A stretch of 64,000 bases of DNA. It comes from Ricordea florida (lineage: Eukaryota; Cnidaria; Anthozoa; Corallimorpharia; Ricordeidae). The notes beneath the pieces were generated by a model. The model was not told where the DNA came from and ran no database searches. It saw only the letters and a list, made by a program, of their open reading frames with translations. The translations under genes were made by a program, and so were the position numbers. Shown here in pieces: positions 1 through 36,469 of this stretch (its first letter is position 1; every line of letters starts with the position of its first letter). The stretch is from assembly GCA_949710005.1 (NCBI GenBank), contig OX453279.1, positions 11,081,378-11,145,377 of the forward strand, written 5' to 3'.

Positions 1-3000
1 TACCCCCTTAGATGACGGTCCTTCTGCCCATACAATCTCTTATCTGTTTTTTTTTGCAAAAATTCTATAAGGCTTAGCTTTCTTGCAACCATCTCTTGGT
101 ATTGTCTCTTGTCTTAAAAAATGACTACAATCACGAGATAAAATGCATTTTAAATTACATTTTAAATGCTACAAGATGGTAAAAATTGCATGTTCATCAC
201 TAATCTGTGTAATAAAGACTTATCAGATAAACTTTGGTACTGTCTGAGCAGTATGCTATAGAATTAGCTGCCTTAAGCAAATATCTTGACAGCCAAAATA
301 CAATACGATTGCGAATTACTATCAATTTGATTTCTTACCAAGATGTTGCCCTTTCGTAATTACTAAGAATCTGCAAAGTTTTAGAATTGCAAAGATTCAA
401 TAGGCCAACGTATGATAAGATATCTTTTATTTTAGGGCATATAGGCAATTGGTCGAGGTGCGCATGCGTAGTAACTAAAAGTAGTTTCCTTAAATCACAT
501 GGAAATCTAATCGTTGCAATTAAAATTTTATTCGTCATCCAAAGCTGAGTCTATATCCTACTATAACATATAGATAAAACATCCAAAATGATTCCATAAC
601 TTACCCTCCTAGATGACGGTCTTTCTGCCCATACAATCTCTTATATGGTTTTTTGACAAAAAATCTATAAGGCTGAGCTTCCTTGCAACCATCTCTTGGT
701 ATTTGTTTCTTGTCTTCAAAAATGACTATAATCACGACATAAAATGCATTTTAAATTACATATTAAATGCTACAAGATGGTAAAAATTGCATGTTCATCA
801 CTAACCTGTGTAATTAAGACTTATCAGAAGAACTTTGGTACTGTCTGAGCAGTATGCTATAGAGTTAGCTGCCTTAAGCAAATATCTCAACAGCCAAAAT
901 ACAATACGATATCGAATTACTATCAATTTGATTTCTTACCTAGATGTTGCCCTTTCGTAATTAGTAAAAATCTGCAAAGTTTTAGAATTGCAAAGATTCG
1001 GTAGGCCGACGTATGATAGAATATCTTTAATTTTAAGGCATATAGGCAATTGGTCGAAGTGCGCATGCGTAGTAACTAAAAGTAGTTTCCTTAAATCACA
1101 TGGAAATCTAATTGCTGCAGTTAAAATTTTATTCGTCATTCAAAGCTGAGTCTATATCCTACTATAACATATAGATAAAACATTCAAAATGATGCGATAA
1201 CTTACCCCCTTAGATGACGGTCCTTCTGCCCATACAATCTCTTATCTGTTTTTTTTTGCAAAAATTCTATAAGGCTTAGCTTTCTTGCAACCATCTCTTG
1301 GTATTGTCTCTTGTCTTAAAAAATGACTACAATCACGAGATAAAATGCATTTTAAATTACATTTTAAATGCTACAAGATGGTAAAAATTGCATGTTCATC
1401 ACTAATCTGTGTAATAAAGACTTATCAGATAAACTTTGGTACTGTCTGAGCAGTATGCTATAGAATTAGCTGCCTTAAGCAAATATCTTGACAGCCAAAA
1501 TACAATACGATTGCGAATTACTATCAATTTGATTTCTTACCAAGATGTTGCCCTTTCGTAATTACTAAGAATCTGCAAAGTTTTAGAATTGCAAAGATTC
1601 AATAGGCCAACGTATGATAAGATATCTTTTATTTTAGGGCATATAGGCAATTGGTCGAGGTGCGCATGCGTAGTAACTAAAAGTAGTTTCCTTAAATCAC
1701 ATGGAAATCTAATCGTTGCAATTAAAATTTTATTCGTCATCCAAAGCTGAGTCTATATCCTACTATAACATATAGATAAAACATCCAAAATGATTCCATA
1801 ACTTACCCTCCTAGATGACGGTCTTTCTGCCCATACAATCTCTTATATGGTTTTTTGACAAAAAATCTATAAGGCTGAGCTTCCTTGCAACCATCTCTTG
1901 GTATTTGTTTCTTGTCTTCAAAAATGACTATAATCACGACATAAAATGCATTTTAAATTACATATTAAATGCTACAAGATGGTAAAAATTGCATGTTCAT
2001 CACTAACCTGTGTAATTAAGACTTATCAGAAGAACTTTGGTACTGTCTGAGCAGTATGCTATAGAGTTAGCTGCCTTAAGCAAATATCTCAACAGCCAAA
2101 ATACAATACGATATCGAATTACTATCAATTTGATTTCTTACCTAGATGTTGCCCTTTCGTAATTAGTAAAAATCTGCAAAGTTTTAGAATTGCAAAGATT
2201 CGGTAGGCCGACGTATGATAGAATATCTTTAATTTTAAGGCATATAGGCAATTGGTCGAAGTGCGCATGCGTAGTAACTAAAAGTAGTTTCCTTAAATCA
2301 CATGGAAATCTAATTGCTGCAGTTAAAATTTTATTCGTCATTCAAAGCTGAGTCTATATCCTACTATAACATATAGATAAAACATTCAAAATGATGCGAT
2401 AACTTACCCCCTTAGATGACGGTCCTTCTGCCCATACAATCTCTTATCTGTTTTTTTTTGCAAAAATTCTATAAGGCTTAGCTTTCTTGCAACCATCTCT
2501 TGGTATTGTCTCTTGTCTTAAAAAATGACTACAATCACGAGATAAAATGCATTTTAAATTACATTTTAAATGCTACAAGATGGTAAAAATTGCATGTTCA
2601 TCACTAATCTGTGTAATAAAGACTTATCAGATAAACTTTGGTACTGTCTGAGCAGTATGCTATAGAATTAGCTGCCTTAAGCAAATATCTTGACAGCCAA
2701 AATACAATACGATTGCGAATTACTATCAATTTGATTTCTTACCAAGATGTTGCCCTTTCGTAATTACTAAGAATCTGCAAAGTTTTAGAATTGCAAAGAT
2801 TCAATAGGCCAACGTATGATAAGATATCTTTTATTTTAGGGCATATAGGCAATTGGTCGAGGTGCGCATGCGTAGTAACTAAAAGTAGTTTCCTTAAATC
2901 ACATGGAAATCTAATCGTTGCAATTAAAATTTTATTCGTCATCCAAAGCTGAGTCTATATCCTACTATAACATATAGATAAAACATCCAAAATGATTCCA

Positions 3001-6000
3001 TAACTTACCCTCCTAGATGACGGTCTTTCTGCCCATACAATCTCTTATATGGTTTTTTGACAAAAAATCTATAAGGCTGAGCTTCCTTGCAACCATCTCT
3101 TGGTATTTGTTTCTTGTCTTCAAAAATGACTATAATCACGACATAAAATGCATTTTAAATTACATATTAAATGCTACAAGATGGTAAAAATTGCATGTTC
3201 ATCACTAACCTGTGTAATTAAGACTTATCAGAAGAACTTTGGTACTGTCTGAGCAGTATGCTATAGAGTTAGCTGCCTTAAGCAAATATCTCAACAGCCA
3301 AAATACAATACGATATCGAATTACTATCAATTTGATTTCTTACCTAGATGTTGCCCTTTCGTAATTAGTAAAAATCTGCAAAGTTTTAGAATTGCAAAGA
3401 TTCGGTAGGCCGACGTATGATAGAATATCTTTAATTTTAAGGCATATAGGCAATTGGTCGAAGTGCGCATGCGTAGTAACTAAAAGTAGTTTCCTTAAAT
3501 CACATGGAAATCTAATTGCTGCAGTTAAAATTTTATTCGTCATTCAAAGCTGAGTCTATATCCTACTATAACATATAGATAAAACATTCAAAATGATGCG
3601 ATAACTTACCCCCTTAGATGACGGTCCTTCTGCCCATACAATCTCTTATCTGTTTTTTTTTGCAAAAATTCTATAAGGCTTAGCTTTCTTGCAACCATCT
3701 CTTGGTATTGTCTCTTGTCTTAAAAAATGACTACAATCACGAGATAAAATGCATTTTAAATTACATTTTAAATGCTACAAGATGGTAAAAATTGCATGTT
3801 CATCACTAATCTGTGTAATAAAGACTTATCAGATAAACTTTGGTACTGTCTGAGCAGTATGCTATAGAATTAGCTGCCTTAAGCAAATATCTTGACAGCC
3901 AAAATACAATACGATTGCGAATTACTATCAATTTGATTTCTTACCAAGATGTTGCCCTTTCGTAATTACTAAGAATCTGCAAAGTTTTAGAATTGCAAAG
4001 ATTCAATAGGCCAACGTATGATAAGATATCTTTTATTTTAGGGCATATAGGCAATTGGTCGAGGTGCGCATGCGTTGTAACTAAAAGTAGTTTCCTTAAA
4101 TCACATGGAAATCTAATCGTTGCAATTAAAATTTTATTCGTCATCCAAAGCTGAGTCTATATCCTACTATAACATATAGATAAAACATCCAAAATGATTC
4201 CATAACTTACCCTCCTAGATGACGGTCTTTCTGCCCATACAATCTCTTATATGGTTTTTTGACAAAAAATCTATAAGGCTGAGCTTCCTTGCAACCATCT
4301 CTTGGTATTTGTTTCTTGTCTTCAGACATGACTATAATCACGACATAAAATGCATTTTAAATTACATATTAAATGCTACAAGATGGTAAAAATTGCATGT
4401 TCATCACTAATCTGTGTAATTAAGACTTATCAGAAGAACTTTGGTACTGTCTGAGCAGTATGCTATAGAGTTAGCTGCCTTAAGCAAATATCTCAACAGC
4501 CAAAATACAATACGATATCGAATTACTATCAATTTGATTTCTTACCTAGATGTTGCCCTTTCGTAATTAGTAAAAATCTGCAAAGTTTTAGAATTGCAAA
4601 GATTCGGTAGGCCGACGTATGATAGAATATCTTTAATTTTAAGGCATATAGGCAATTGGTCGAAGTGCGCATGCGTAGTAACTAAAAGTAGTTTCCTTAA
4701 ATCACATGGAAATCTAATTGCTGCAGTTAAAATTTTATTCGTCATTTAAAGCTGAGTCTATATCCTACTATAACATATAGATAAAACATTCAAAATGATG
4801 CGATAACTTACCCCCTTAGATGACGGTCCTTCTGCCCATACAATCTCTTATCTGTTTTTTTTTGCAAAAATTCTATAAGGCTTAGCTTTCTTGCAACCAT
4901 CTCTTGGTATTGTCTCTTGTCTTAAAAAATGACTACAATCACGAGATAAAATGCATTTTAAATTACATTTTAAATGCTACAAGATGGTAAAAATTGCATG
5001 TTCATCACTAATCTGTGTAATAAAGACTTATCAGATAAACTTTGGTACTGTCTGAGCAGTATGCTATAGAATTAGCTGCCTTAAGCAAATATCTTGACAG
5101 CCAAAATACAATACGATTGCGAATTACTATCAATTTGATTTCTTACCAAGATGTTGCCCTTTCGTAATTACTAAGAATCTGCAAAGTTTTAGAATTGCAA
5201 AGATTCAATAGGCCAACGTATGATAAGATATCTTTTATTTTAGGGCATATAGGCAATTGGTCGAGGTGCGCATGCGTAGTAACTAAAAGTAGTTTCCTTA
5301 AATCACATGGAAATCTAATCGTTGCAATTAAGATTTTATTCGTCATCCAAAGCTGAGTCTATATCCTACTATAACATATAGATAAAACATCCAAAATGAT
5401 TCCATAACTTACCCTCCTAGATGACGGTCTTTCTGCCCATACAATCTCTTATATGGTTTTTTGACAAAAAATCTATAAGGCTGAGCTTCCTTGCAACCAT
5501 CTCTTGGTATTTGTTTCTTGTCTTCAAAAATGACTATAATCACGACATAAAATGCATTTTAAATTACATATTAAATGCTACAAGATGGTAAAAATTGCAT
5601 GTTCATCACTAACCTGTGTAATTAAGACTTATCAGAAGAACTTTGGTACTGTCTGAGCAGTATGCTATAGAGTTAGCTGCCTTAAGCAAATATCTCAACA
5701 GCCAAAATACAATACGATATCGAATTACTATCAATTTGATTTCTTACCTAGATGTTGCCCTTTCGTAATTAGTAAAAATCTGCAAAGTTTTAGAATTGCA
5801 AAGATTCGGTAGGCCGACGTATGATAGAATATCTTTAATTTTAAGGCATATAGGCAATTGGTCGAAGTGCGCATGCGTAGTAACTAAAAGTAGTTTCCTT
5901 AAATCACATGGAAATCTAATTGCTGCAGTTAAAATTTTATTCGTCATTCAAAGCTGAGTCTATATCCTACTATAACATATAGATAAAACATTCAAAATGA

Positions 6001-22500: not shown

Positions 22501-22534
22501 AACAGCCAAAATACAATACGATATCGAATTACTA
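7531..22534. repeat. Higher-order block: mixed 3-mer and 4-mer satellite units
   Basis: Class A monomers recur at spacings of 2400 bp (for example 8745 to 11145 and 19547 to 21947) or 1799 bp (11145 to 12944 and 17748 to 19547), with B, C and D monomers between them. Some monomers are mosaics. For example, the one near 17150-17750 begins like B and ends like D, as expected from unequal crossover between classes. The last monomer is class B and stops after the sequence CGAATTACTA, where the transposon begins. Confidence 0.85.
22527..22534. repeat. Target-site duplication, left copy
   Basis: AATTACTA immediately precedes the transposon. In intact monomers the sequence reads CGAATTACTATCAATTTG. 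Here it stops after AATTACTA, and the right flank restarts with AATTACTATCAATTTG, so these 8 bases are duplicated exactly. An 8-bp duplication is within the range known for Mutator-like (8-10 bp) and hAT (8 bp) elements. Confidence 0.9.
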
Positions 22535-22566
22535 GGGAATATTTATATTTGAAAATTATGCAACAA
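22535..22566 (+). repeat. Left terminal inverted repeat
   Basis: The first 32 bases match the reverse complement of the last 32 bases of the element at 22 of 32 positions with no gap. Positions 9-28 match at 16 of 20, including the shared block TATGCA. Both ends begin with GG at the element's outer edge. The repeat is degenerate, but it coincides exactly with the target-duplication boundary, which makes chance unlikely. Confidence 0.7.
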
Positions 22567-22660
22567 TATTTATCTGTATAACAAAAAATTTTAGGCAAAT
22601 GATTTTGTCTGTATAAATATTAATACGAAATTATAAAAAACAACACAGAACAAAATTTAA

Positions 22661-23780
22661 GCAACTTCATACTCGCTTATCGTTTTGTTATATGAGACTA
22701 AAATCCATGCAACTAGATACTCGCTTATCGTTTTGTTATGTACATGTTTATAATATTTTATAACGGGTTATAAGGCCACCAAATTCTTGCTTATCGTTTT
22801 GTTATGCGTGACTGAATTCCATGCAACTAGATACTCGCTTATCGTTTTGTTATGTACATGTTTATAATATTATATAACGGGTTATAAGGCCACCAAATTC
22901 TTGCTTATCGTTTTGTTATGCGTGACTGAATTCCATGCAACTAGATACTCGCTTATCGTTTTGTTATGTACATGTTTATAATATTATATAACGGGTTATA
23001 AGGCCACCAAATTCTTGCTTATCGTTTTGTTATGCGTGACTGAATTCCATGCAACTAGATACTCGCTTATCGTTTTGTTATGTACATGTTTATAATATTA
23101 TATAACGGGTTATAAGGCCACCAAATTCTTGCTTATCGTTTTGTTATGCGTGACTGAATTCCATGCAACTAGATACTCGCTTATCGTTTTGTTATGTACA
23201 TGTTTATAATATTATATAACGGGTTATAAGGCCACCAAATTCTTGCTTATCGTCTTGTTATGCGTAACTGAATTCCATGCCACTAGATACTCGCTTGTCG
23301 TTTCGTTATGTACAGTTTATATTATATAACGGGTTATAAGCCACCAAATTCTTGCTTATCGTTTTGTTATGCGTGACTGAATTCCATGCGACTAGATACT
23401 CGATTGTCGTTTCGTTATGTACATGTTTATAATATTATATAACGGGTTATAAGGCCACCAAATTCTTGCTTATCGTTTTGTTATGCGTGACTGAATTCCA
23501 TGCAACTAGATACTCGCTTGTCGTTTCGTTATGTACAGTTTATATTATATAACGGGTTATAAAGCCACCAATTTCTTGCTTATCGTTTTGTTATGCGTGA
23601 CTGAATTCCATGCCACTAGATACTCGCTTGTCGTTTCGTTATGTACCTCATATAATATCACATAACGGGGCTTAAGCCACCAAATTGTTGCTTATCGTTT
23701 CTTTTCTAGGCGACTTGATACTCGCTTATCGTTTTGTTATGAACAATTTTGTAGAAATATCACATAACGGGTAATAAGCC
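22661..23780 (+). repeat. Left subterminal tandem array (114-bp unit)
   Basis: About ten units. The marker ACTAGATACTCGC recurs at 22825, 22939, 23053, 23167 and 23281, a period of 114 bp. Later units are shortened to 109-110 bp and more diverged towards the inside. Each unit carries the core CGCTTATCGTTTTGTTATG and a related copy, CTTGCTTATCGTTTTGTTATG, so there are two core motifs per period. Inverted relatives of the core fill the right subterminal array. Likely role by analogy with other transposons: repeated transposase-binding sites. No coding potential is seen. Confidence 0.93.
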
Positions 23781-23804
23781 ATACAACGAAAAACGGCCAA
23801 AATT

Positions 23805-23982
23805 AAGAATTGGTTCATGCTTAACGTGCGTGCACACGGGAAGTTTGGAGAGCACGAAAGATGCGTAAGAGTTGTCGAGGCGATAGCCGAGTTTCTAGCT
23901 TCTTGAATGCTCTCCAAACTTCCTAAGTGCACCATAACTTGATGTATGCAAAGCTAAAAGCCAAAAGCATGAACCAATTCTT
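23805..23982. repeat. Foldback (inverted repeat) insertion or hairpin
   Basis: Two nested pairs of arms form an imperfect palindrome. AAGAATTGGTTCATGCTT (23805-23822) pairs with 23965-23982. AAGTTTGGAGAGCA (23841-23854) pairs with 23908-23921. GTGCAC at 23830-23835 pairs with 23927-23932. The central loop is about 53 bp, and the right arm has about 20 extra bases. This looks like a small foldback element, or a remnant of one, inside the left flank of the transposon. It explains two short ORF-like frames crossing it, which are not genes. Confidence 0.7.
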
Positions 23983-25280
23983 TTTATAACATTGTAAGAT
24001 TTTTTTGTGATGACTGATGTTTGCATAAAATTATTACGGGAGCTACGATCGATTAAACCTGCCTTAGTTTTCACTTGTCTAAACGGCTCAAACGTTAGCT
24101 TTGAATTTTCTGAAATTAATTTCATTCATGGATTGACAATGTAAGTTGTAAAATCGATCAGTATAAACTTTATGAAGAACTTGTAAAGAACACGGCAACG
24201 AAAATGGTTCGTAAGTTGAAAATTATAATTTTATTCCTACCGTGGCGAACGATTTAACTGCAGCATTTCTGCATTCCGTTTCGCTCTTAACTTTGTCAAA
24301 ACTCGTTTCAAGCTGGAAACCAAATCACTGCTGATGAAGCGCGCTCAGCCAATCAGGATCAAGTAATCATGCCCTCTTGATTATCAACAAGCAGCTATTT
24401 CAAGAAGAAATAGTGTTTCGTTTCCAGAACATGGAAGGATAAGAATGACAAGGAATTTCCTAATTTATACCTCTCTTGCCCTTTTTCATGGCTTCCGTGC
24501 CAGCAAACACGACAAACGCAAAGGTATCGTGTCTTTGTTTGCGCTTGTAAGCGCTCTCATTGGTGGGAATTTTGTTCTTTCTCAGAATATAGCTAGAATG
24601 TTTACTTAACAATTAAACACGAAAAGAGCTCACTTTATATTTTTCGCCAATACATCGCTTTAATCGAACTTAAAAGCATTGCAGTCTTCAGATATTTTGC
24701 TTAAGACTATCTTTCCGATATTTGAAGAACATGTTTTTACGAGATTGTTCGCCTTTAGTACAAGGTGTTGCCATTGTGGTTACGAGCGTTCTTCTGGTTG
24801 GATAGTAGCCCCCACTGTGTAAATAGTTCGCATCGAATCCAAAACAATACCGTTTCGTTTCTGAGGGAACGAAACAAAAAGTGTTCTCGTGATTAAGAAA
24901 AAATACCCTTTGTCTTAGCAAGTAATTTTGCCCCGTATGTACTATGATAAATAAAAAAAAGTGATTTGTAAAATCCCGTTTAAGAATTTTCGAGATGTCA
25001 AAACTCAGTTTAATGGCTAATCATTCTGCAAGTTTAGTTTTACATTTAAAGTATAATATCTACAGAGCAAAAGTTGATAAGCGGTAAAAAAAGGGGCGAT
25101 GAACTGCTCTTCTATACATGAACAATAAAATATTAATTTGTTTTGAAAAACTGTTGAAAACTATTCACTCTTCTTTTGAAAACTTGTCGTGATCAATTAC
25201 CCCTTGCATTGTTTGACCTAAACATAAACAGTCTGATCAGGAACGCCATGCCCAGTTATAAAGATAGTTGTACCTATAAC
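23983..25280. other. Non-coding interior, no gene recognised
   Basis: AT-rich sequence between the foldback and the 3' flank of the gene. A 77-codon minus-strand frame at 24688-24921 opens with TTG, not ATG, and matches nothing I recognise. CCAAT-like elements occur at about 24348 (plus) and as ATTGG at about 24558, but no coding start follows them convincingly. I see no RNA gene. Confidence 0.5.
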
Positions 25281-25358
25281 CAAATCCTCGATTTTGATTG
25301 TTTCAGCGTGCGCCTGTTCGTCGCGTAATTGGCGCGCGATCACTTGGGTATCCAGTTA

Positions 25359-25680
25359 CACACAGCGGTCAAATGCAAAAATCAAACGCCACTTCCGGTT
25401 TTCGCCGCTTCGAATTTTGCAAGAAATTGAAGAGGAAACCTGCGAGACTTTTGTAGGAAAATGTTATAAAAGTAGTACTGTTAAAGAAAATTACAAGCTG
25501 GGAGTCTCTTATGATGTCCATTAGTAAATTCCCTGGTCATATGCGAAGTAGAAAGCTTAACTTTTCAGCGACTGTCTTAACTTTGGGCTTGAAAGCGGAA
25601 ATCTTTTGGAAATTTAAGACTTTGTTAAGCGAAAGATTTGGCCGGAACTGCGCACGCGCCTCACGTTTGACCGCTGTGTG
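25359..25680. repeat. Separated 15-bp inverted repeat, relatively GC-rich
   Basis: CACACAGCGGTCAAA at 25359-25373 is exactly inverted at 25666-25680 (TTTGACCGCTGTGTG). The surrounding 25270-25740 is visibly richer in CpG and GC than the rest of the element, with short runs such as GCGCGCG and GCGCACGCGCC. It may be another small nested repeat, or a conserved 3' regulatory segment. No reading frame across it looks like a protein. Confidence 0.5.
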
Positions 25681-25691
25681 AGCCAGCTACT

Positions 25692-25726
25692 GGTATCCAA
25701 TTTCAAACAACTTCAAATTGGATACC
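25692..25726. repeat. Short perfect hairpin, 12-bp arms
   Basis: GGTATCCAATTT (25692-25703) and AAATTGGATACC (25715-25726) are exact inverted copies around an 11-bp loop. It lies downstream of the gene's stop codon and next to the inverted repeat just described. GGTATCC also occurs near 25347 beside the left arm, so the hairpin and the inverted repeat may be parts of one nested element. Confidence 0.7.
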
Positions 25727-25925
25727 TGTAATTATTCGCACGTCAGTCACGTACACTTAGATGGGTTCCTTCTGGATTTTATTCTACTGCTTGTATAACC
25801 GATTAAACATACTTTTCACTTTTTTACACAAAATACTTTCTGAAAGATATCCTAACCTCGAATTTTGTTATTGATACGATTAATTGGTAATCGGACATCA
25901 TGTCGTACAAATTACTCATTGTCTG

Positions 25926-25931
25926 TTTATT
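25926..25931 (-). terminator. Probable polyadenylation signal of the transposon gene
   Basis: TTTATT on the plus strand reads AATAAA on the minus strand, 64 bases after the TGA stop codon at 25995-25997. Position and exact hexamer fit a eukaryotic polyadenylation signal for the minus-strand gene. This gives a short 3' untranslated region, with cleavage expected 10-30 bases further on. Confidence 0.65.
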
Positions 25932-25994
25932 GTGTCATTGATCATCGATTAGTTATACGTGGGATTGTGTGAAGAACAAACGATATCTATGAAA

Positions 25995-28900
25995 TCAAGT
26001 AAATCTAACGTCCTCTGTATCTAAGTTCTCTAGCCATTCACTCCATGGGGCTACTTTCTTGCCGTTGACTTCTTTTCCTTCGAATGTTACAAAATATCCT
26101 TTTCTTCTGTTGTAAGAAGAGATGGTTCCATTAAACCAGCCCAAATACTGAGCATCTTTCCCATCAGGGCTCTCTTCTTGGAATTCTACGGCAACTGTCG
26201 TACCAATAAGGTTTCTCCCACTTGCTATATTTCTTCTTTTATCGGGTGGAGCATTGCCATCTTCCTGGGTGCCTTTTGTCAAACTGGAACGCTTTCTTTT
26301 TCTTCTATCGCTTTTATGTTTTCTTCTTGCCTCTTCAATACTTGAATACGAGAGACTTACATTCGTTTCTGTTGCAGACAGTTTTGCAGCATGCGTCCTG
26401 TCTTCTAGATATATGTTTTCAAGTAAACAGTTCAGGCTGCAGCCCTTTTGATGTAACGACTGCCTGTTTATCGATTCGACAGGATTGGTGGTTTTAGGAG
26501 CATGTTCCCACTCTTTTTCACTCAAATTTGTATACGCTCTAGTGAACATTTGTAGGTGATTACCCCTGCACCACCACTCTGACCAGCTTTGGAGTCTCTT
26601 CCATCCTTGAGATTCAGTAGTTGATAATAACACATTTAGAGAGGCATCCACGAATTCACTGGCCTCCAGGATGCTTTCCTGGCCAGACAAAATCCGAAAA
26701 AGCTTTTTAACTTTTTCCTTGTCAGCTACTTGAGGAATTTGTCTGCCAAGGTGAAGGAACAAACGCTCCTCTTCTTTTGTGTTAGTAACGAGTTTAGCTA
26801 CTCTTTGTAGTGATCGTGTCCAGTGGACATGACATCCTCGCAGAACCCGTTCTGCTTGTTCGTTTCCCATGGCTTCCTTCAGGCCTTTGGCTTCTGCGTC
26901 ATCAAAATCTACGAGAATTACATCAAGCTTTTCGCCATTTTTGAAACCCGGAAACTGGTTTATAACATGTGTAAACATTTCCTTAAATGCAGTTGCATAA
27001 GCTAAAGAATCTTGTCTGTTGCACAGCACTCTTCCGACAGCATTATATAAAAGCGTTTTCTCGTTAAGAGATACTACATTTAAAAGATAAGGAAACGACG
27101 TATTTCCAGTGTAGGTGATATCCACAAAAATGTACGATGCGCGAGCTAATTGTTCTGCTTGAAAGGGTGCCATAAAAAAGGCATGCTTGTATGTCGAGGT
27201 GAAAATGTATTCCCTTCCATCCATTTGGTAACTTCCCATCATCTCATTTACTTTATTAGAAAGTAACTCTTCCTCTTCGTCTTGAGTACCTTCTATCTTA
27301 TTTTTGATGTTTGGAAAATTGATAATGGCCGCAATGTCACTCGCATTCGATTGTCCCCCACTGTTAACTATACTTCCAAGTGCAAGTCTCCTTTCTCTTC
27401 TCACTCTGTCAATGTTTATGGCAGCAATGCTTTTTTCACCAGGAACATAAGGCATTCCTAATCCCTTTGCGAGGTCCTTTGCAGTGCTTCTAATGTTCTT
27501 TCTTGCTGACTCCTGGATATCTTCTTGCACCTTGGTGGAAATTTTGTGTGGAGCAGGTTTCGAGTGATTGTGCGAGTTTATAACTCCTATCCATCTCCTA
27601 CCATCATCTTCTGCTGGCCATATATATAAAAATTGAACAGGGCATTTTCCAGTTTCTTTTAGGGGAACAGAATTTTTGTGTGTGGAACACCGGTTCATGC
27701 GTTGTCTCTTGGAAACGGTGTAACTGTCGCATCCATCCCCAGAACAAACTTTAACACCTTCACATGCTGATCTTTTGATGTTCAATTTTGTTACTGCACC
27801 ATCGATACATATATCGTGTGCCTGTGTTTGCGATGACGCTCTTGACAATTGATTGTCGTCATTCATGTAGTGTGCTCTACTCCTGGCAGCGAAAGGTTTC
27901 TTCCTATAATCAGCGCAGTAGTACAGTTTATCGATATCGAAGAACCCTGGGTATTCGTACTCGTCCTTCCTTTCTAAAACCCTCCATGAATCGCTATTTT
28001 TTAGCATGTCCTTTATCCTGGGTAGATAGTGGCAGCCTCTTCCCTGTCGCTTCCTTGTTACTACCTCTTTCGCTTCCTTAGGGTTTAGTATGTTTTTGAA
28101 TGGAGACATCACAAAAACAGGAACGGGATTTGCGAGAAACGACCGACCTTGACTAGTTAGTTTGTAGGTTCTGTAAGTCCTTGTGATAGTTCTTCCTTGT
28201 CCCTTAAGTTCAAACGTATTAAAACAAATATCGACATAGCCCAACTTCACGCTCTGACGGATCACGTTTTCCCAAGCACCTTTTGACCAAACGTGACCTT
28301 CAATTTCATTTCCCTTGCAGTATGTACTGGATTCGTCAATTTTGTTTTGAATGGAATCCGCAGCCAGCCAATCCTGCTTTGCTCCTCTCATCCATGATAT
28401 CAATTTCGTCTCAGAGATACCATCTTTCCCCTTTTCAAGAACGCTCTCCAGTTCCGTGATAGATTTCAATAGTAGAAAAAGTGCCGCCTGTACATCGAAA
28501 TCTTTTTTAGTGTTAAGTTCACAACACAAGCAGCAATCTGCTGGATCAATGTTGACACTTGCAGTATCATTATAGTATTTCAAAAGTTCCGTTCGCAAAC
28601 AGTCCCCGGTGTAAGTTGAGTATATCCATTTCCAGCAAGCCTCGTAATCTTTCTTTATTCGTTCCGTATCACTGCTGCTGCATCCTTTAATCCAATATCC
28701 CAGACGTTGATCGTCTTTGTGTTCATTGATGAGCAGGAGTCCATCGGCACCATTTCCTTCACTTCTTCCAGCTCTACCAAATTCCTGTAACAGAACGTTC
28801 ATATTCCGCATGCACCCCACTCGCGCAACAAAATCAACGTGAGGATTATGTACTCCAACTTCATATGACTCTGTGGCACAAAGCACTTGGAATTCTTCGT

Positions 28901-31852
28901 TGATGAAATCTTCAACTATCTCTTTTTTCTGTGTATTTGTCATACCTTTTCCGTGAAAACACTTCACGTCTAATTCTCCTTTTTTCTTCAAGCATTGGGA
29001 AAAATCTTTAACTTCATTTGTGAAGTCCATGTAGACAATGGTGTATTTTTCCCCTATGAACTTGCTAATGTCGTCGCAAAGAGGACCCCACCCTTCGTAT
29101 ACACTGTCCTTACTCGTTTTTTTCTGTTTTCTTTTTTCCATTTGATATGATCCAACAGTTAACTTTATATTGCTTCTATCTACGCTTCCCTTTATCAGAA
29201 CGGGCGACTGCAGATAATCTTTGCATAAAATTCGAAGATGTTCTTCGCTTAGCGTAGCTGTTAAGGCCATTATAGGTATCCCAGGGAACTGTTCCTTTAG
29301 TTCGCTTAGAGAGCTGTATGCTTCTCGAAACCCAGTATGCCTGTCAAAGACTTTGTGTACTTCGTCCAACACAATCATTTTAAGTTTGCTTTTTCTTGCT
29401 TGAAGAAGGGGCATCACTTTATGAAAATGCTCTGGTGTTGTATATGCTAAGGATGGAGTTCCTAGCAAACTTTCCATGAGTATTCTATCGCTGTTGTCTT
29501 CCGCAGTGTCGCCTGCACAGGGCCCAAATGGTACTGCGTCAATTCCCCTCTTTCTTAGACCAGTTACTTGACTCTGTATCAGAGATACTGTAGGACTTAT
29601 CACTATTGTTACTGCATTATCTTCTACAACAGACGGTACTTGAAAACAAAGACTTTTCCCAGATCCAGTTGGCTGAACCACCACAACATCATGGCCTTCC
29701 TGTATAGCATGAATAGCTTGTAGCTGAAAGGGTTTAAAAGAGTTAAATCCAAAAGCGGTAAGATGACCTTTCCACAACACTTCGTTGCGTTTAGCAAGAG
29801 GCGGAAGCTGTTCTGGAAGCATATAACTAATGCCTTTGCTATTACTTTCTTCATTTGCATTGCCATCGTTTATGAATGTAAGTCCATTAGTACCTTTGCA
29901 ACTACCACCCTCTGCCTCTGTGCCCTCGTGAAAAGTTTGACGAACACCATTCTGCGCGTCTTCACAGTGGATTGATGGAGTGTCTGATTGAGGTCGCTGT
30001 TCTAAGTCGCTTGCTGCTTGCAGCAATTCCTCATCACTGCCCTCATCACTCCCTATATTCACTCTTTCCTCACAAATAACTTCAAGCTTCTCGGCTTCCA
30101 TCAAAGACTGAAAAGATGGACGCTTTATTGACATCTCTATTCGCTGACGGATCCACCTTGCGAGTTCACGGGTTGCATCTTGTAGGTTTTCATCTCGGTA
30201 ATGTACGCATACAATCACGCCATTGCCATTTCCTCCCAAATCTTCTGATATTTTGTGTGTGTCTACAAGCAGAAAACTGTTATGTTCCTTACCTACTGTA
30301 TGAATTAAAGTAAACATGATAGGGGGACAAGTGTAAACTGAAAATGTATTGGATGGGCGACTAGCCATTTCCTGCAATACTTTAATTATTTCATCCTCCC
30401 CTTTGTCTGACTGACCAGTAAAAGACATTGAGAGACTCTCCTTGAAGACATATTGGTATTCCAAAAGCTTGTTCTCGTGAAGGATTTCGTATGCTTCGTC
30501 AACGGTAAAATGGCTGCTTTTGTCTCGCACGCTATTGATGTCAATAGGAAAAAGGGTGATAATTTCCTCGACAATATCCCTGACTTTAGAAGCAGCACTT
30601 TGCATGGTTTCGGCGTCAGAAACAATCAGTGAGTCTATTACTTTTAGGGAAAGGAAGGAGCAAGCATTCGTCCCATCTCTAGTATTCAATTCATCCTCTA
30701 CAACTTCCGCAAGCTCTGCATCTATCGTTTTTCCGTTTGCAAAACCTTGGGCAAAGACTTCCCCAGCTTCTTCGACTGCCTTGCCTTGATGACATGACAA
30801 TGGAATAATATCAGCAAGCTTCCATTCTCTTCTAACATTCCCGTCTATGGTGAGACTGGAATTATCATGTTCAGCGGTCTTACATTCAAAAAGGGATTCT
30901 TTGATATTTCTCAGAGTCGCGGAAACTGCTTTCATTGTTGGTCTTTCGTCGGGAGTTCCGCTCCAGCAATTCCTTATTAACTGCAAAAAAGGATCTGACT
31001 GCTTTCCCAAACCTTCAAGGCCAATTAAAGAGGGACGTGATCCTGTCTCTGCAGATTTACTGATGAGTTCTGGTATGTTACATACTCCATACCATGGATG
31101 CGGTTTTAAGGGATAAGCTATTTCGTGGAGGAAAAGGGAAAAGCTGTAAACATCAGATGCGAAGGAGTAATTACTACCACCCTTGACTACCTCGGGGGCG
31201 ATGAATGGTAAGGTGCCCACTACACGTCTACAGTTTTCTTTATCTGCATTTCTTCCTTGTGTAGGTTGCGACGAGGCAATGGATATGATCGTTTGTCTGT
31301 GGGTAAAAAGAGCTTCTCCGAAATCTCCAATTTTAACAATCCATTCCGCGTTGGATACTCCTCCTGAGATGAAGAAGTTAGCTGCCTTGACATCTCTATG
31401 GACAATGTTCTGAGAATGCAAGTAAGCCAAACCCTCAGCTCCGCTTTGAGCTATGTGAAGCCTAATATCCCAGGTAATATTCTCTTCCAGCTCATCTAAC
31501 ATCATCCTAACATCAAAGACAGTTACGTCTTCACCTTCAACAGAAATAGTCCTTCCCATGAGCTCATACGCTGTCATATACCTGTCCTTCTCAATTCCAT
31601 AGAACTTCATTACATTATCATGTTTCAGCTGCTGTAGCACCAAGGCTTCCTTCTCTATTACGCGCTTAATTCGTCTTGTCAGAGGTGAAGTGAGCTCTTT
31701 TAGGGCCATAGGGATATCAGCAAACTTTCCATCACCTACTAATGTGGCCTTGTACATTAAACACGTAGCACCAGCCGCAAAATGTTTCCCTTCTATGTTT
31801 AAGTGATCTTTATTCAGGAATATATCTTCCCCACCACCTTTAAGCTTGAGAT
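25995..31852 (-). CDS. Exon 7: kinase, protease-like, RecQ helicase and MULE transposase domains
   Basis: A single 5858-nt exon open to TGA at 25995-25997. The frame physically extends to 31913, but its only upstream initiator is GTG, and the residues before position 31852 look intron-derived. The site TTTGCTTATTTCTTACAG|ATCTC is a textbook 3' splice site, so I start the exon there. Phase 1 fits exon 6, giving S-D-L-K-L-K at the join. The exon has no frameshift or stop. Domains are listed separately with their key residues. Short frames on the opposite strand over this exon are shadows. Confidence 0.93.
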
Positions 31853-34791
31853 CTGTAAGAAATAAGCAAACTCTGAAAAATCTGAATAGTTTATTATTCG
31901 ATTTAAAAAACACATTTTGCCCAATTTGTGTGTTTTAAAGTGTGTAATTACCATGTGTTTTGGATCTTTTCCACTGTTAACTTCCATTAATGGTATTTAG
32001 ACAAAATAATAGGTGATCTTTCTAAGCCTTATATTTAATTAGGGAAGGACCATTAGATGATGGGGGGTGGGGGGGAGGGGAATACAAAAAATTCATGCAA
32101 GTCAAAATGCCTAGAAAAACAACAAAGGAAGGAGATTTAACTTTCAAGGTTAAATGTCTTAAAATTATAAAAATACCATTTAAGTGTTGGAAAGACTATA
32201 AGATCGTGGCTCTGATTGTAATTTCAGAACTTTTATGTGACCTATACTCACCTGAACGCACTGGGGCAATTACATTCCTATTTCTAAAGTCCGAGTCTTT
32301 GAACTGTCTTACAAGGTCATAAAATTCTTGCTTGCTGATGTCCGGTTTTCTTTTTTGGGGACTTGGTCTTTTTTTCTGAAACAACATAGCCAGAATTTTG
32401 GTTTGTTAGACAACCAAAGTGATATGTGTTTCAGCATTATCCGCGTGCTGAATTTTTACTTCAATTAATCCCTAAGAAATTTTGAGCAAAAGTCCATATA
32501 GCAGCAGAAAATCTGTTGTGGTATATTACCTTTCGAAAACAGCATTTTGGAGTCCAAAGTTGGAATGCAAGTTCGGCTCTTCTTCTTTTAGTAGCTTTAG
32601 TAGTTTTTCCTGCAGCTGCTCGGACATTTTCGAAAGACGGTTCAAAGCGACAGCTTTGAACCCTCCCATGATCCTTCCCATGATCCGGTTTCACTTTGCT
32701 GAAACAATAACGAAAATTTAATGACTGAAAATTTTGGATCGAGCCTCTGTGGACACTGTTGTAAGGGTAGGATGGTTGTTTGTTTGAGTGCTTGTTGGGA
32801 GGAGGTGGAGGCGTTGGTCCTCCAAGATACCATCTCAAAAGATTGTATCTTTTTATATGGTATCTCGGAGGGTCGAAACGGAAATGAGCAAATGCAATGC
32901 AATAAAAAGTAATTTAAGACGAACGGAAATAAGCAAATGTAATCCATTTTTTCTAAGCAAAGCTGCACCGGCATGGTGTTAACTGGTGAGGTTCACGGAA
33001 ATGAACGATGTTACAACAGTACCTCAATTTTGCTGTGGATTCCTTTGGACGTAGATAACTGATTCTTAAAATTGTTCCTTCGAACAAACACATCTCCTAA
33101 ACCAAAACATTACGAAATAGGGTTTTATTTTACTGTAACGAAGTAGCAAAATGTATATAGTGTTAATAAATTATCCTAACTGTCTTCTTAATTCCGATCA
33201 CCATAATGATCATCATGTATGTAGCTAATGCTTTATTGAATATAGATAATAATTTTACTGCATATAATAATAAGTCTTAATGCACCAAAGATAAAATACA
33301 TATCATATGCAGGAGAATATGCATGTAAATGTAATGGGCTCCTGTCATATGTTAATATATTATAAACAATATATATAGGCTGTGTTTTCACTAGGCCGAT
33401 TAACTAGCTGAACATTTTTGCTAGGTGTTTGTTTACAGACCGACATTAGCTAGTTAAACATGACATCTGTTTTTACTGGGAAATTTTAAGCCACTAATAA
33501 CTCGCAAGATTCAAATTACAAATCTGCACAACCTTAAAAAATGGCGGGAGAGGAAGCGCTTCTAATGAGTTCACTAGTACTGATTCTCGCTTTATTTTTG
33601 CGAAAGAGAAGGAGTTTGGTTGAGAGGATGCGATTAATGTCTCGGTAGATGCGGAGGGACTGAGCTTGTCGAGGGTGACGCATGTGGCATAGGAACTTAG
33701 AAGAACTGCTGCTTGCCCGTAATGCGGGAATTGATTCTGCATGCCGACGCTGTGAAACAAGTAAGGCCCTGGACGAGGCATCTGAGCATCTAAATTGAAA
33801 AACGGCGAAAGAATTGGGAAGAGTTTTGCAAGTCGTCAGCCTTGTTTACAAGCATACGGGGTTTTGTTTCGGAAGAACCACGAGGCGAGCGTCTGGAAAA
33901 TAATTTTGCCAGATTGTTTTGGCAGTTATCTGTCACTACACGCGATGCGATTGGCTGGGGTATTTGTTGGGAAAAGTTAACCATCTTGCGAGGAAGTATA
34001 ACTCTGCGTGAGTTTCCTGTCGAAAACGCGAGAAAACCCGTTGTTTTTCCTTGTGAAAACAGTTGGCATTGTTAACTCGCTAAACACTAGACAAAGTGTT
34101 TTCACTGTATTTCTGGACTTTTCTGACTTTAACTAGCTGAAATTGGCCTAGTGAAAACACAACCATAAAAATTATAAGAAGACAATAAAAAAAATCACCG
34201 ATGGCACAAATACAGTAACAGGCCCATCTTACCAGCTTGTTCCTGTTTAAGATAGTAAGCTCGGCTCCTTTAAAGGTCATCATTTTAATAATTGCTAGAC
34301 ATTTGTTTGCTTTCAGCTGAGAAATAAATACAAAGCGCAGCCTTAGTAAGTTGCTCTTGTGTTTATTAGCCAGACATGCTAATGTTCTTGAAATACTAAA
34401 CGTTAAAAAGAAGCGCAATAATTTTCTCTTTATTACTCTTCTTACCTTCCGCTTTATTATCTTTGCGTAGATGACTTGGCCGTAGCCTAAAAATATAAAA
34501 TGCCAAAGTCTTAGCGATGAAGATACAGAGAAGAAGCTCTAAAAGGTCACAGCAAAACAACTTCGTGATAACCTGCAATCGGGCATCTTTTTCGTTTCTT
34601 TTGATAGTGTAAAGAGGTGGCAAGAAGAAAGAGAGGGCATGATCTCAGGTTAAGTTCATGATAACAAGACACTCACGTGTAAAGTGATCCACAAGAGCCG
34701 TCTCGAGTTCCATATCCTTCCAGTTCTTCCAGGAAATCTTAAAACTAACAAATGGCCGTCTACCTTTTATCAATCCTGCCATATCTACCAT
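25995..34791 (-). CDS. Seven-exon gene: RRM-kinase-cysteine protease-RecQ helicase-MULE transposase fusion (2154 aa predicted)
   Basis: Predicted join, 5' to 3' on the minus strand: 34791-34677, 34486-34446, 34316-34233, 33096-33023, 32698-32530, 32375-32252, 31852-25995. The total is 6465 nt, exactly 2155 codons including stop. All six introns have GT and AG ends, and all six junctions keep frame (donor phases 1, 0, 0, 2, 0, 1). Domains by spliced residue: RRM-like 13-100; basic linker 105-200; TKL-like kinase 219-517; papain-fold protease-like 587-780; RecQ helicase with zinc and winged-helix regions 890-1450; GCM/FLYWCH-like zinc motif 1562-1637; MULE DDE transposase 1772-2002; Lys/Arg-rich stretch about 2045-2060; SH3/Tudor-like 2085-2148. 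Exon 7 is directly visible. The upstream exons are inferred from splice consensus, phase and the RRM pattern. The product is presumably nuclear and mobilises the element that encodes it. The six-exon extension is less certain than exon 7. Confidence 0.72.
26016..26207 (-). other. C-terminal SH3/Tudor-like domain
   Basis: Spliced residues about 2085-2148, at the very C terminus and after a Lys/Arg-rich stretch (KSDRRKRKR). The pattern IGTTVAVEF, then YLGWFNGTISSYN, then GYFVTFEGKEV resembles the five-strand barrels of Tudor, PWWP or chromo-barrel domains, which read modified histones or DNA. If so, it could guide integration into particular chromatin. The residues forming an aromatic cage cannot be judged by eye. 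Confidence 0.45.
26454..27146 (-). other. MULE-type DDE transposase catalytic domain
   Basis: Spliced residues about 1772-2002. First acidic residue D1780 in YIFVDITYTGN. Second D1851 in DVILVDFDDAEAKGLKEAM. The C-x2-H insertion follows in GCHVHWTRSLQRVAK. The catalytic Glu is E1995 in TTNPVESINR, the usual N-x-x-E-S-x-N ending of Mutator-like transposases. All three acidic residues are in the expected order, with spacings of 71 and 144. This identifies the element's superfamily and agrees with the 8-bp target duplication. Confidence 0.85.
27549..27776 (-). other. GCM/FLYWCH-like zinc motif ahead of the transposase
   Basis: Spliced residues about 1562-1637. Ordered ligands are C1606 in GKCPVQFLYIW and H1630 and H1632 in INSHNHSKP, with additional Cys and His just upstream (C1572, C1577, C1591, H1594). 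The C...C...H-x-H pattern with an aromatic strand between is typical of the WRKY-GCM and FLYWCH zinc folds that precede MULE transposase domains and bind terminal repeats. The DNA-binding role here is by analogy. Confidence 0.6.
28104..29786 (-). other. RecQ-family DNA helicase core with zinc and winged-helix regions
   Basis: Spliced residues about 892-1452. Motif 0 is FGFNSFKPFQLQAI. Walker A is QPTGSGKS (K935). Walker B is DEVH (1032-1035) instead of the usual DEAH. Motif III is ALTATL. Motif V is around ATESYEVGVHNPHVDFV. Motif VI is QEFGRAGRSEG (Q1225, R1229, R1232), diagnostic of RecQ. After the core come C1287 in DCLRTELLKYY and a compact DCCLCC cluster, matching the RecQ zinc-binding region, then a winged-helix-like RQC segment. 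All ATPase motifs are present, so an active 3'-5' helicase is likely. The fusion of RecQ with a transposase is unusual. Confidence 0.93.
30114..30701 (-). other. Papain-fold cysteine protease-like domain, C76/OTU-like signature
   Basis: Spliced residues about 587-780. A candidate nucleophile is C600 in GTNACSFLSLKVID. A D-x-H pair follows about 130 residues later (D733 and H735 in NSFLLVDTHKISEDLG), and then a beta strand GVIVCVHYR. A helix-capping N-x-C followed by a late hydrophobic strand and D-x-H is the layout of the C76 peptidase family (deubiquitinases). OTU-type proteases are a looser match. Other MULE elements are known to have captured ubiquitin or SUMO protease domains (OTU, Ulp1). 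The assignment rests on motif order only, so the domain could be a diverged or inactive relative. Confidence 0.5.
30909..31805 (-). other. Protein kinase domain (TKL-like), apparently catalytically complete
   Basis: Spliced residues about 219-517. Visible landmarks are: glycine-rich loop GKHFAAGATCLMYK; ATP-anchoring lysine in MALKEL (K254); catalytic loop HRDVKAANF (H354, D356, N361); metal-binding DFG (D379); activation segment end APE (421-423); D436 in DVYSFSLF; and the late Arg in CWSGTPDERP (R506). The glycine loop has Ala in place of the second Gly, which is seen in some active kinases. The HRDVKAAN loop and the CW-x-x-x-P-x-x-R-P ending favour the tyrosine-kinase-like group of Ser/Thr kinases. 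Its substrate cannot be inferred. Confidence 0.93.
32062..32080 (+). other. G-run in intron 6
   Basis: A 19-base stretch that is all G except one T and one A (GGGGGGTGGGGGGGAGGGG). On the gene's own strand it is a C-rich tract in the middle of the 399-bp intron 6. It could form a G-quadruplex on the plus strand, or serve as an intronic splicing enhancer. No function can be assigned. Confidence 0.6.
32252..32375 (-). CDS. Exon 6: basic segment leading to the kinase
   Basis: The acceptor TATGTTGTTTCAG|AAAAAAAG and the donor TTCAG|GTGAGTATAGG flank 124 nt. It reads KKRPSPQKRKPDISKQ, EFYDLVRQF and then ends VIAPVRS, in phase 1. KKRPSPQKRK is a plausible nuclear localisation signal. A second AG lies 8 bases inside (exon start 32367), a possible tandem acceptor. 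The very strong donor and phase match with exon 7 make this the best supported of the upstream exons. Confidence 0.7.
32530..32698 (-). CDS. Exon 5: basic linker (frame partly uncertain)
   Basis: The acceptor CGTTATTGTTTCAG|CAAAG and donor CGAAAG|GTAATA bound 169 nt. In the phase dictated by exon 4 it is open throughout and encodes a linker with basic clusters (KATKRRRAE, CFRK), leaving in phase 0. A second frame, starting at ATG 32681, is also open to the donor and includes SKMSEQLQEKLLKLLKEEE, which looks like a good amphipathic helix. That frame cannot be entered from exon 4 (a TGA lies just upstream). It joins exon 6 in frame only if the second of two closely spaced acceptors is used. Confidence 0.5.
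33023..33096 (-). CDS. Exon 4: last strand of the RRM-like domain
   Basis: The acceptor TTTTGGTTTAG|GAG follows an 1136-bp intron that holds a nested 787-bp repeat. The exon encodes EMCLFEGTILRISYLRPKES then TAKL. G-T-I-L-R-I-S-Y-L-R-P is the expected ending of an RRM (strand 4). The donor TTGAG|GTACTG is in phase 2. If it were not spliced here, the frame would run 23 further codons to a TAG, so a separate short RRM protein is the main alternative. Confidence 0.6.
33378..34164. mobile_element. Nested 787-bp non-autonomous transposon-like repeat in intron 3
   Basis: The terminal inverted repeats GGCTGTGTTTTCACTAGGCC (33378-33397) and its inverted copy at 34145-34164 differ at a single base, and both continue into related AACTAGCTGA sequences. 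The flanks share only ATA, a possible 3-bp duplication. Terminal GGC plus a 3-bp duplication would suit the PIF/Harbinger type, but ATA is not their usual TWA target, so the class is uncertain. Inside is an interrupted frame from ATG 33541 (35 codons, rich in Arg and Leu) that may be a decayed coding fragment. It lies wholly inside the intron and does not disturb the splice sites. Confidence 0.7.
34233..34316 (-). CDS. Exon 3: RRM-like strand 3 and helix 2
   Basis: Bounded by the acceptor TATTTATTTCTCAG|CTG and the donor AAGCTG|GTAAGAT, 84 nt and 28 codons in phase 0. It encodes a stretch starting LKANKCLAIIKMMTF, in the position of the RNP1 strand, then GAELTILNRNKL, in the position of helix 2. 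The RNP1 aromatics are not conserved (KCLAIIKM), so canonical RNA stacking may be lost. Confidence 0.62.
34446..34486 (-). CDS. Exon 2: 41-nt microexon of the RRM-like domain
   Basis: The acceptor TTTTATATTTTTAG|GC and the donor GGAAG|GTAAG flank 41 nt. Joined in phase 1 to exon 1 it reads RYGQVIYAKIIKRK. With exon 1 this gives HFTRYGQVIYAKII, which is the typical RRM pattern of helix 1 running into strand 2 (F-x-x-Y-G-x-V followed by hydrophobic residues). It ends in phase 0. Confidence 0.65.
34677..34791 (-). CDS. Exon 1: start codon and first half of the RRM-like domain
   Basis: ATG at 34791-34789, with a second in-frame ATG three codons later and an in-frame stop upstream, so this is the first available start. 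It encodes MVDMAGLIKGRRPFVSFKIS followed by an amphipathic helix ending LVDHFT. The exon ends at CAC|GTGAGTGT, a strong donor, in phase 1. The residues fit RRM strand 1 (FVSFKI) and helix 1. Exons 1-3 are short, and I found no long frame that would otherwise explain them. Confidence 0.62.
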
Positions 34792-35197
34792 ATCGATTTC
34801 AAAGAATCTTCGCTTTCGAATTTTCAACCGAAATAAACATAAAGTTCACAGCGTGTTTGACTGCACCATGTGCGTCTAGAAACGTACTGTAAAATGAGTC
34901 TGATCTATTGCAACTCAATGGAAGATGCCAGGTCCGGTTAATATTGGAAAATGGATTGTTTTTTCTGTGTCTGTTTGAAATCCTCAAGGCTCTAACTAAC
35001 ACTTCTCAGCGTATTTAGTTATGTATAGTAAGAATTTTGCTTCCGTAATTCGTAATTTGCTGTCATTCCATTTTGAGGTGTTTTCACAAAAAAAAAAAAA
35101 CACTTTTTGTTTCCGTTGACGGTTTTTAAGTGTCCGTTGTTCGTCTTATAGTACTCTCCTTCGCAGCCGTTGTTTGTGCTCGTCACGCAACGCTTCC
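34792..35197 (-). promoter_or_regulatory. Upstream region of the gene, presumed promoter and 5' leader
   Basis: About 400 bp separate the proposed start codon from the right subterminal array. No TATA box or other core element is obvious in the expected position. An A-run of 14 lies at about 35087-35100. A minus-strand frame at 34799-35002 without a good start is present but unconvincing. Transcription probably starts in this segment or in the adjoining subterminal repeats, whose core motifs could let the transposase regulate its own gene. This is inference from position only. Confidence 0.35.
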
Positions 35198-36363
35198 TCC
35201 GAAACGAAACGATATGCGAGTATCTAGTCGCATAAAGTCCAGTCATTGTGTAACAGAACGATATGCAATTGTTTACCGGCTTATATTTTGTTACATTTAA
35301 GTAACGTCAAATAAATATTTAACGAAACGATATGCGAGTATCTAGTCGCATAAAGTCCAGTCATTGTGTAACAGAACGATATGCGATTGTTTCCTCGCTT
35401 ATATTTTGTTATTAGTAACGAAACGATATGCGATTATCTAGTCGCATAAAGTCCAGTCATTGTGTAACAGAACGATATGCGATTGTTTACTCGCTTATAT
35501 TTTGTTACATTTAAGTAACGTCAAATAAATATTTAACGAAACGATATGCGAGTATCTAGTCGCGTAAAGTTCAGTTAGAATGTAACAAAACGATATGCGA
35601 TTGTTTCCTCGCTTATATTTTGTTATTAGTAACGAAACGATATGCGATTATCTAGTCGCATAAAGTCCAGTCATTGTGTAACAGAACGATATGCGATTGT
35701 TTACTCGCTTATATTTTGTTACATTTAAGTAACGTCAAATAAATATTTAACGAAACGATATGCGAGTATCTAGTCGCGTAAAGTTCAGTTAGAATGTAAC
35801 AAAACGATATGCGATTGTTTCCTCGCTTATATTTTGTTATTAGTAACGAAACGATATGCGATTATCTAGTCGCATAAAGTCCAGTCATTGTGTAACAGAA
35901 CGATATGCGATTGTTTACTCGCTTATATTTTGTTACATTTAAGTAACGTCAAATAAATATTTAACGAAACGATATGCGAGTATCTAGTCGCGTAAAGTTC
36001 AGTTAGAATGTAACAAAACAATATGCGATTGTTTCCTCGCTTATATTTTGTTATTCGTAACGAAACGATATGCGATTATCTAGTCGCATAAAGTCCAGTC
36101 ATTGTGTAACAGAACGATATGCGATTGTTTACTCGCTTATATTTTGTTACATTTAAGTAACGTCAAGTAAATATTTAACGAAACGATATGCGAGTATCTA
36201 GTCGCATAAAGTCCAGTCATTGTGTAACAGAACGATATGCGATTGTTTCCTCGCTTATATTTTGTTATTAGTAACGAAACGATATGCGAGTATCTAGTCG
36301 CATAAAGTCCAGTCATTGTGTAACAGAACGATATGCGATTGTTTACTCGCTTATATTTTGTTA
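35198..36363 (-). repeat. Right subterminal tandem array (alternating 118- and 96-bp units)
   Basis: The marker GATATGCGA recurs at 35211, 35329, 35425, 35543, 35639, 35757, 35853, 35971, 36067, 36185 and 36281. The spacing alternates 118 and 96 bp, so the composite period is 214 bp. Each unit has AACGAAACGATATGCGA and TCGCTTATATTTTGTTA in opposite orientations, a palindromic arrangement. Reverse-complemented, the units read GCGACTAGATACTCGC then TATCGTTTCGTTA, matching the left array's ACTAGATACTCGC core. Overlapping short frames here are repeat-derived and not coding. Confidence 0.93.
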
Positions 36364-36429
36364 CGTTATAATGATATTTTCCACGGAATTGCTTTTTTGC
36401 ATTATTTATTTTGTTATAATGGACGTTCT

Positions 36430-36461
36430 TTAGTGCATATTTTGCGAATGTAATTGATGCC
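36430..36461 (-). repeat. Right terminal inverted repeat
   Basis: The last 32 bases of the element, ending TTGATGCC. Reverse-complemented they start GGCATCAATTAC and align without gaps to the left end (22 of 32 identical, including AATTTATATTTG-like and TATGCA positions). Between this and the subterminal array are about 66 bases of unique AT-rich sequence. Confidence 0.7.
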
Positions 36462-36469
36462 AATTACTA
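36462..36469. repeat. Target-site duplication, right copy
   Basis: AATTACTA restarts the interrupted class B monomer, which continues TCAATTTGATTTCTTACC exactly as in intact monomers. With the left copy it brackets the element. Confidence 0.9.

Follow-up and report, generated by a model that had tools for sequence, protein, structure and literature searches.

The 64,000-nucleotide stretch of the Ricordea florida genome analyzed here (the window) raises the question of whether a single very long open frame, which joins a kinase, a helicase, and a transposase, belongs to a mobile unit or to a host gene lying beside a transposon. The preliminary description took it for a mobile unit with defined ends and a target duplication, located at 25995 to 34791. 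These coordinates are right for the span of the gene, but the element is larger, since its ends and duplication sit at 22535 and 36461. When the region is set against satellite monomers that lack the insertion and against two additional copies, the whole mobile element is delimited as 22535 to 36461 (13,927 bp), with the gene on the minus strand. The ends and duplication are real: the 8-bp duplication AATTACTA occupies 22527 to 22534 on the left and 36462 to 36469 on the right, and 82 monomers of the surrounding array are uninterrupted at this site. Comparison of the two ends revealed degenerate terminal inverted repeats, one (22535 to 22564) starting with GGG and the other, at the 5' end of the gene (36432 to 36461), starting with GGC.

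The insertion host sequence is a satellite array with monomers of about 600 bp, which fills the window from 1 to 22526 and from 36470 to 64000. Each 40-bp flank has 83 matches in the window, of which 82 continue without a break and the remaining one is the insertion locus. The left array has a higher-order organization, with identity peaks at offsets of about 1202, 2404, and 3606 bp (96.4, 96.8, and 95.9%, with 93.4 to 94.5% between them), and the right array has peaks at 2400 and 4800 bp (97.0 and 96.4%, with 93.3 to 95.1% between them). This satellite is perhaps centromeric.

Scoring 24 of the 661 candidates from a first look at the genome brought up two near-full further copies, on C5 and C1 (C numbers designate contigs of the same genome, 538 Mb in 48 contigs, and L numbers designate fetched loci). 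In this genome the GFP family (PF01353) has 61 matches of exon size, 57 of them on a single contig, compared to none in 14 control genomes, which points to an anthozoan host. The C5 copy is flanked on both sides by the 8-bp duplication GATCTCGG and the C1 copy by the 9-bp duplication gcagcagcc. Their main exons are 99.92 and 99.83% identical to that of the window, respectively, and each carries one frameshift; relative to the window copy, there are one synonymous and three nonsynonymous substitutions in C5 and three and four in C1, which are too few to yield a signal. As the coding exons of the three copies are 99.8 to 99.9% identical, the element is recent. In all three full copies the whole frame lies between duplicated ends, so the unit has moved as one piece and is a mobile unit rather than a host gene beside a transposon, as first proposed. 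A decayed relative, with about 90% identity, is present at C5:14331229; its ends were not found.

The ends of the element are more widespread than its body, one end occurring at at least 39 places and the gene-5' end at at least 24. The 24 gene-5'-end places include the three full copies; of the 21 others, we fetched the 15 with a partner end within 4 kb, and the remaining six comprise four in two composite loci and two that have no close partner. The 15 short copies measure 977 to 3612 bp and consist mainly of the outer parts of this element. Twelve of them have a target duplication (8 bp in six, 9 bp in six), and none was seen in L041, L043, or L046; copies deleted inside but with the same ends have thus also moved. 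Two like-built loci, L031 (C2:20363500-20365400) and C16:24224444-24226165, are bounded on each side by the 3' end, in opposing orientations, and enclose 5' ends; these are nested or rearranged short copies. At C14:20339291-20495300, successive 3' ends of the element are spaced 27,968, 27,968, 27,968, 27,764, and 44,341 bp apart, and adjoining 2307-codon frames with a tegument-like (PF04843) domain have spacings of 27,968, 27,968, 27,764, and 44,341 bp. This region is a segmental array of units of about 28 kb.

Within the element, the minus-strand frame from 25995 to 31934 is open for 1979 codons. The main coding exon begins at a splice acceptor predicted from the sequence at 31852 and runs to 25995 (5,858 bp with the stop), in agreement with the continuous 5.86-kb exon originally described. 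A predicted upstream coding exon of 124 bp, or 41 amino acids, at 32252 to 32375 joins this exon in phase, and minus-strand positions 32548 to 32607 may be part of a further, weakly conserved one (tblastx to the C6 and C3 families, E values of 0.071 and 0.024, 45% identity over 20 amino acids). The modules of the window copy follow the order kinase, Cys/Asp-x-His protease-like module, RecQ helicase, Cys/His zinc-finger-like region, MULE-type DDE domain, and a weakly Tudor/Agenet-like C terminus, the last of which had been overlooked in the initial list of domains. All lie on the minus strand, and residue numbers below follow the 1978-residue query protein.

The protein kinase domain (amino acids 49 to 339; 30915 to 31787) is complete-looking, as had been claimed. 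Its Pfam match has an E value of 4.2e-27, the PF07714 score of 95.5 bits is well over the cut-off of 23.1, and the catalytic motifs Lys78, Asp180, Asp203, and Glu247 are present. Among the best 60 of 1143 matches to solved structures, the kinase resembles GCN2 and RAF.

The next region (approximately amino acids 385 to 600; 30132 to 30779) is a cysteine protease- or deubiquitinase-like module with Cys424 and Asp557-Thr-His559. Both the Asp-x2-Asn-x-Cys and the Asp-Thr-His motifs are invariant in nine of nine aligned sequences, which are stop-free pieces, including that of the window, chosen from 38 genome matches with decayed ones left out. In the eight sequences measured, the Cys is always followed by Asp-x-His, with a Cys-Asp spacing of 127 to 136. 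The protease-like module proposed earlier has these invariant residues, but it does not match any Pfam or PDB entry significantly; the solved structures gave only weak matches (best E value, 0.011, to a cytokinesis regulator) and no cysteine protease. Available portions of a report on VTD deubiquitinases, known from Helentrons and cnidarian genes, describe a Cys and an invariable Asp-x-His as seen here, and in DrT1-VTD2 (Cys322, Asp451, and His453) the Cys-Asp spacing is 129 (PMC9741609). UFSP2 and ATG4 use a Cys/Asp-x-His triad as well, and in several corals and sea anemones VTD domains are fused to other regions, including transposon-associated domains (PMC9741609). In contrast to VTD domains, the module has no profile match: PF04843 (Herpes_teg_N) was not found in Pfam scans of it, and the element's protease-like places are absent among the 150 PF04843 genome matches listed at E values of ≤10. 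The word kinase is absent from PMC9741609. By its residues, then, the module appears VTD-like in active-site layout, and by profile it is not a PF04843 member.

The same two modules occur on their own at L050 on C15, where a single 600-codon frame (1474 to 3276) contains only the kinase and the Cys/Asp-Thr-His module; no other frame of ≥120 codons was present in the 3.5 kb fetched, of which about 1.5 kb is downstream. Because this frame has only these two parts, it suggests that the kinase and protease-like module may form an older unit, the L050 frame being a possible host or ancestral form. A 312-codon frame at L051 on C12 (1644 to 2582) has the Cys/Asp-Thr-His module, and Pfam gave nothing for it at E values of ≤1. 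A pattern search of viral contigs with the L050 kinase-protease protein returned three matches, none of them a relative.

In the RecQ helicase (amino acids 725 to 1273; 28113 to 29759), Pfam identified DEAD at amino acids 734 to 897 (E value, 2e-27) and Helicase_C at 962 to 1057 (2.9e-14), and the NCBIfam RecQ model TIGR00614 gave 229.8 bits, over its cut-off of 219.8 (191.0 bits, under it, for the C10 relative). Conserved cysteines follow the core, and RQC scored below its cut-off of 23 bits (E value of 1.8e-4 and 21.7 bits in the window; 12.2 bits in C10). The closest solved structure overall, among the best 60 of 1143 matches, is a RecQ (E value, 2.7e-39). When 76 of 451 genomic candidates were scored, element-type matches had at least 39% identity and other RecQ-like matches of >300 residues had 25 to 33%, with short matches from other loci reaching higher identities. 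Two sets of RecQ-like frames with near-identical scores are also repeated in the genome, one of 640 codons (e.g., C2:33396236, C1:45961453, and C5:12426894) and one of 393 codons (e.g., C3:10206680 and C2:37028927). They differ from the RecQ of the element, with 28 to 30% and 35% identity, respectively, and perhaps belong to other transposons.

Between the helicase and the transposase is a region of conserved Cys and His residues (amino acids 1390 to 1459; 27555 to 27764) that is zinc-finger-like, although no zinc-finger family matched it in Pfam scans. The DDE transposase domain (26472 to 27131) has Asp1604, Asp1675, and Glu1819, with Cys1700-x2-His1703 between the second Asp and the Glu. A DDE triad with C-x2-H in this position is the MULE motif. 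The catalytic residues claimed for a MULE DDE domain are present in the triad and C-x2-H, but the Pfam MULE score is below the curated cut-off of 27.6 bits, both for the whole window protein (E value of 0.01, 16.7 bits) and for its C-terminal piece (0.0022, 18.8 bits), and also for C10 (0.054, 14.4 bits). The alignment in the window spans 94 of 99 profile positions; no match was obtained in the C7 piece or in the piece from C3, which is partial because it begins within the domain. Because of this sub-cut-off score, the MULE label rests on the size of the duplications, the triad with C-x2-H, and the weak profile matches. Target duplications in the MULE range (about 8 to 11 bp) flank all three full copies and 12 of 15 short ones, and the terminal inverted repeats found in MULEs are present in degenerate form (20 of 30 positions match). 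A pattern search of viral contigs with the transposase part gave no match.

The C-terminal domain (25998 to 26219) is weakly Tudor/Agenet-like. Agenet is the sole Pfam match in short C-terminal pieces of the window, C10, and C12 copies (E values of 0.039, 0.42, and 0.041) and ranks third for that of C3 (0.27), all below the cut-off; it is not listed when longer pieces of the window and C10 proteins are scanned, and no solved structure matched this part.

Both ends of the element contain subterminal tandem arrays, with a 114-bp unit on the left (22675 to 23700, plus strand) and a 214-bp unit on the right (35203 to 36364, minus strand). A 16-bp motif, counted with ≤3 mismatches, is present in 20 copies at the left end (22535 to 23800), all on the plus strand, and in 22 at the right end (35201 to 36461), all on the minus strand. 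It does not occur elsewhere in the window, either in the body of the element or in the satellite, and shuffled versions of the element contain a mean of 0.35. The motif is kept at both ends in 14 of the 15 short copies; the exception, L035, has it at a single end. We infer that these motif arrays are putative transposase-binding sites. Arrays are common to some families and not seen in all, since 66-bp arrays flank the gene closely on both sides in C6 and on one side in C3, and none is present in the 20 kb examined for C10 (2,815 bases masked).

The arrangement of modules is conserved in divergent families. In the C10 family, a single frame is open for 2029 codons; it is 41% identical over its full length and keeps the domain order, with the kinase residues Lys78, Asp180, Asp203, and Glu247, the Cys424/Asp557/His559 triad, the helicase motifs, and D1604, D1675, C1700, H1703, and E1819 all retained. 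The joint frame is therefore no artefact, and an assembly error or a chance frame is ruled out by the further copies together with this divergent family. This order also holds in C6 and C3, with the kinase-protease and RecQ-transposase parts in separate open frames and gaps of 727 and 830 bp between the matching stretches; an intron between the two frames is plausible. In the C16 copy, two C2 copies, and the decayed L052, the protease-like part runs into RecQ with stops inside. The expectation of multiple copies with the same order, their own terminal inverted repeats, and 8-bp duplications was thus borne out in part: the full copies have duplications of 8, 8, and 9 bp and the order is kept in C10, but a search for a duplication and GG/CC ends gave no convincing pair for the C10, C6, C3, or C7 family.

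Comparison of the two older copies C6 and C3 gave dN/dS values (with P obtained from back-calculated site numbers) of 0.42 for the kinase (P = 0.066), 0.44 for the protease-like module (0.023), 0.31 for RecQ (7e-8), 0.54 for the zinc finger with its linker (0.16), 0.30 for the DDE domain (5e-4), and 0.51 for the Tudor-like domain (0.11). All six modules are below 1, and three of them (RecQ, DDE, and protease-like) are individually significant.

We regard the element as probably a young, potentially autonomous cut-and-paste MULE-type DNA transposon that encodes one polypeptide extending from the kinase to the Tudor/Agenet-like domain. The alternative that has most to recommend it, though we consider it unlikely, is that the DDE element belongs to another superfamily, Rehavkus-like or new, and is not a true MULE. 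The Pfam MULE matches in the window and C10 reach E values of only 0.0022 to 0.054, the C7 piece and the partial piece of C3 lack such a match, and the minisatellite arrays and 9-bp duplications recall Rehavkus, which, in the portions of PMC6446971 available, has a minisatellite before its 3' end and a 9-bp duplication. Yet MULE is the sole transposase family among the Pfam matches of the window and C10, with 94 of 99 positions aligned in the former, and the 8- to 9-bp duplications and C-x2-H fit a MULE. The PHD finger of Rehavkus (PMC6446971), moreover, is not among the Pfam matches of this element at E values of ≤0.1 and ≤5. Membership in Kolobok was rejected on the basis of target duplications, which are 4-bp TTAA there (in the available text of PMC9587614) and varied sequences of 8 to 9 bp here.

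It is also quite unlikely that the DDE domain alone works in a MULE-type element that has merely picked up the kinase, protease-like, and RecQ parts as functionless passengers. Pack-MULEs do carry gene fragments, according to the accessible part of PMC6431247, and when modules are taken singly dN/dS reaches significance in just three, RecQ, DDE, and protease-like; against this, the catalytic residues are kept at 41% identity in C10, the order is the same in C6 and C3, and dN/dS is 0.30 to 0.54 across the six modules. That the element is a nonautonomous passenger moved in trans by another family seems improbable, given a window copy that is young and whose coding exon is open with the triad, although the short copies, which share its ends, can have moved only in trans and two of the three full copies carry frameshifts. 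That the locus is a multidomain host gene next to a transposon or interrupted by one, or else an assembly join, would be in keeping with the separate kinase and protease-like frame on C15, but is extremely improbable, as the frame lies within duplicated ends in all three full copies and the same order recurs at other loci.

Among animal MULEs, the Phantom, Ghost, Spectre, and MuDR-6_HM groups have in common with this element duplications of 8 to 10 bp and a DDE domain with a zinc finger, and aphid Phantom likewise has a minisatellite after the transposase ORF (available portions of PMC6446971 and PMC13359780). The complete arthropod MULEs described in the same portions are 1.4 to 10.0 kb long, compared to 13.9 kb here, and the words helicase and kinase are absent from both main texts. 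PMC6446971 assigns an ovarian-tumor (OTU) motif to MuDR-6_HM, a cnidarian group, which sets a precedent for a motif of deubiquitinase type in a cnidarian MULE. As here, KolobokH combines a DDE transposase with a RecQ helicase, but its RecQ is downstream of the transposase domain and that of our element is upstream; in PMC9587614, KolobokH is reported from fungi only and the word kinase is absent. Neither pairing alone is therefore new, since KolobokH has RecQ with DDE and a cnidarian MULE group has an OTU motif. Among the papers listed in a literature search limited to open-licence publications, no fusion of kinase, RecQ, and DDE was seen.

The conservation of the domain order in a divergent family looks like that of a working design, not an accident. 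In such a design, the zinc-finger part would bind the inverted subterminal motif arrays and the DDE domain would do the cutting and joining, while RecQ might unwind the repeat-rich ends or help to repair them and the Tudor-like end might read chromatin. The kinase and protease-like head could act on host proteins or on the element's own, in repair, silencing, or transposase stability, and the element would thus supply its own post-translational toolkit. More tentatively, and with considerable doubt, it is possible that a single polypeptide phosphorylates, acts in the manner of a deubiquitinase, unwinds, cuts, and reads chromatin, that the transpososome itself modifies host proteins of repair or silencing where the DNA is cut, and that the RecQ part was what allowed the array ends and a 14-kb body to move.

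Judged from its sequence, the locus is a real, recently active giant MULE-type transposon that has moved and been conserved, with a composite transposase whose enzymes have predicted roles. Cut-and-paste transposases are usually small and dependent on host factors. In this element, by contrast, the DDE transposase shares one polypeptide with a kinase, a protease-like module, and a helicase of the repair type, and the fusion is kept at 41% identity. It is now directly testable whether a DNA transposon of eukaryotes supplies signaling and repair enzymes of its own, and the element points to a route by which kinase and protease modules and RecQ copies may spread in an anthozoan genome.
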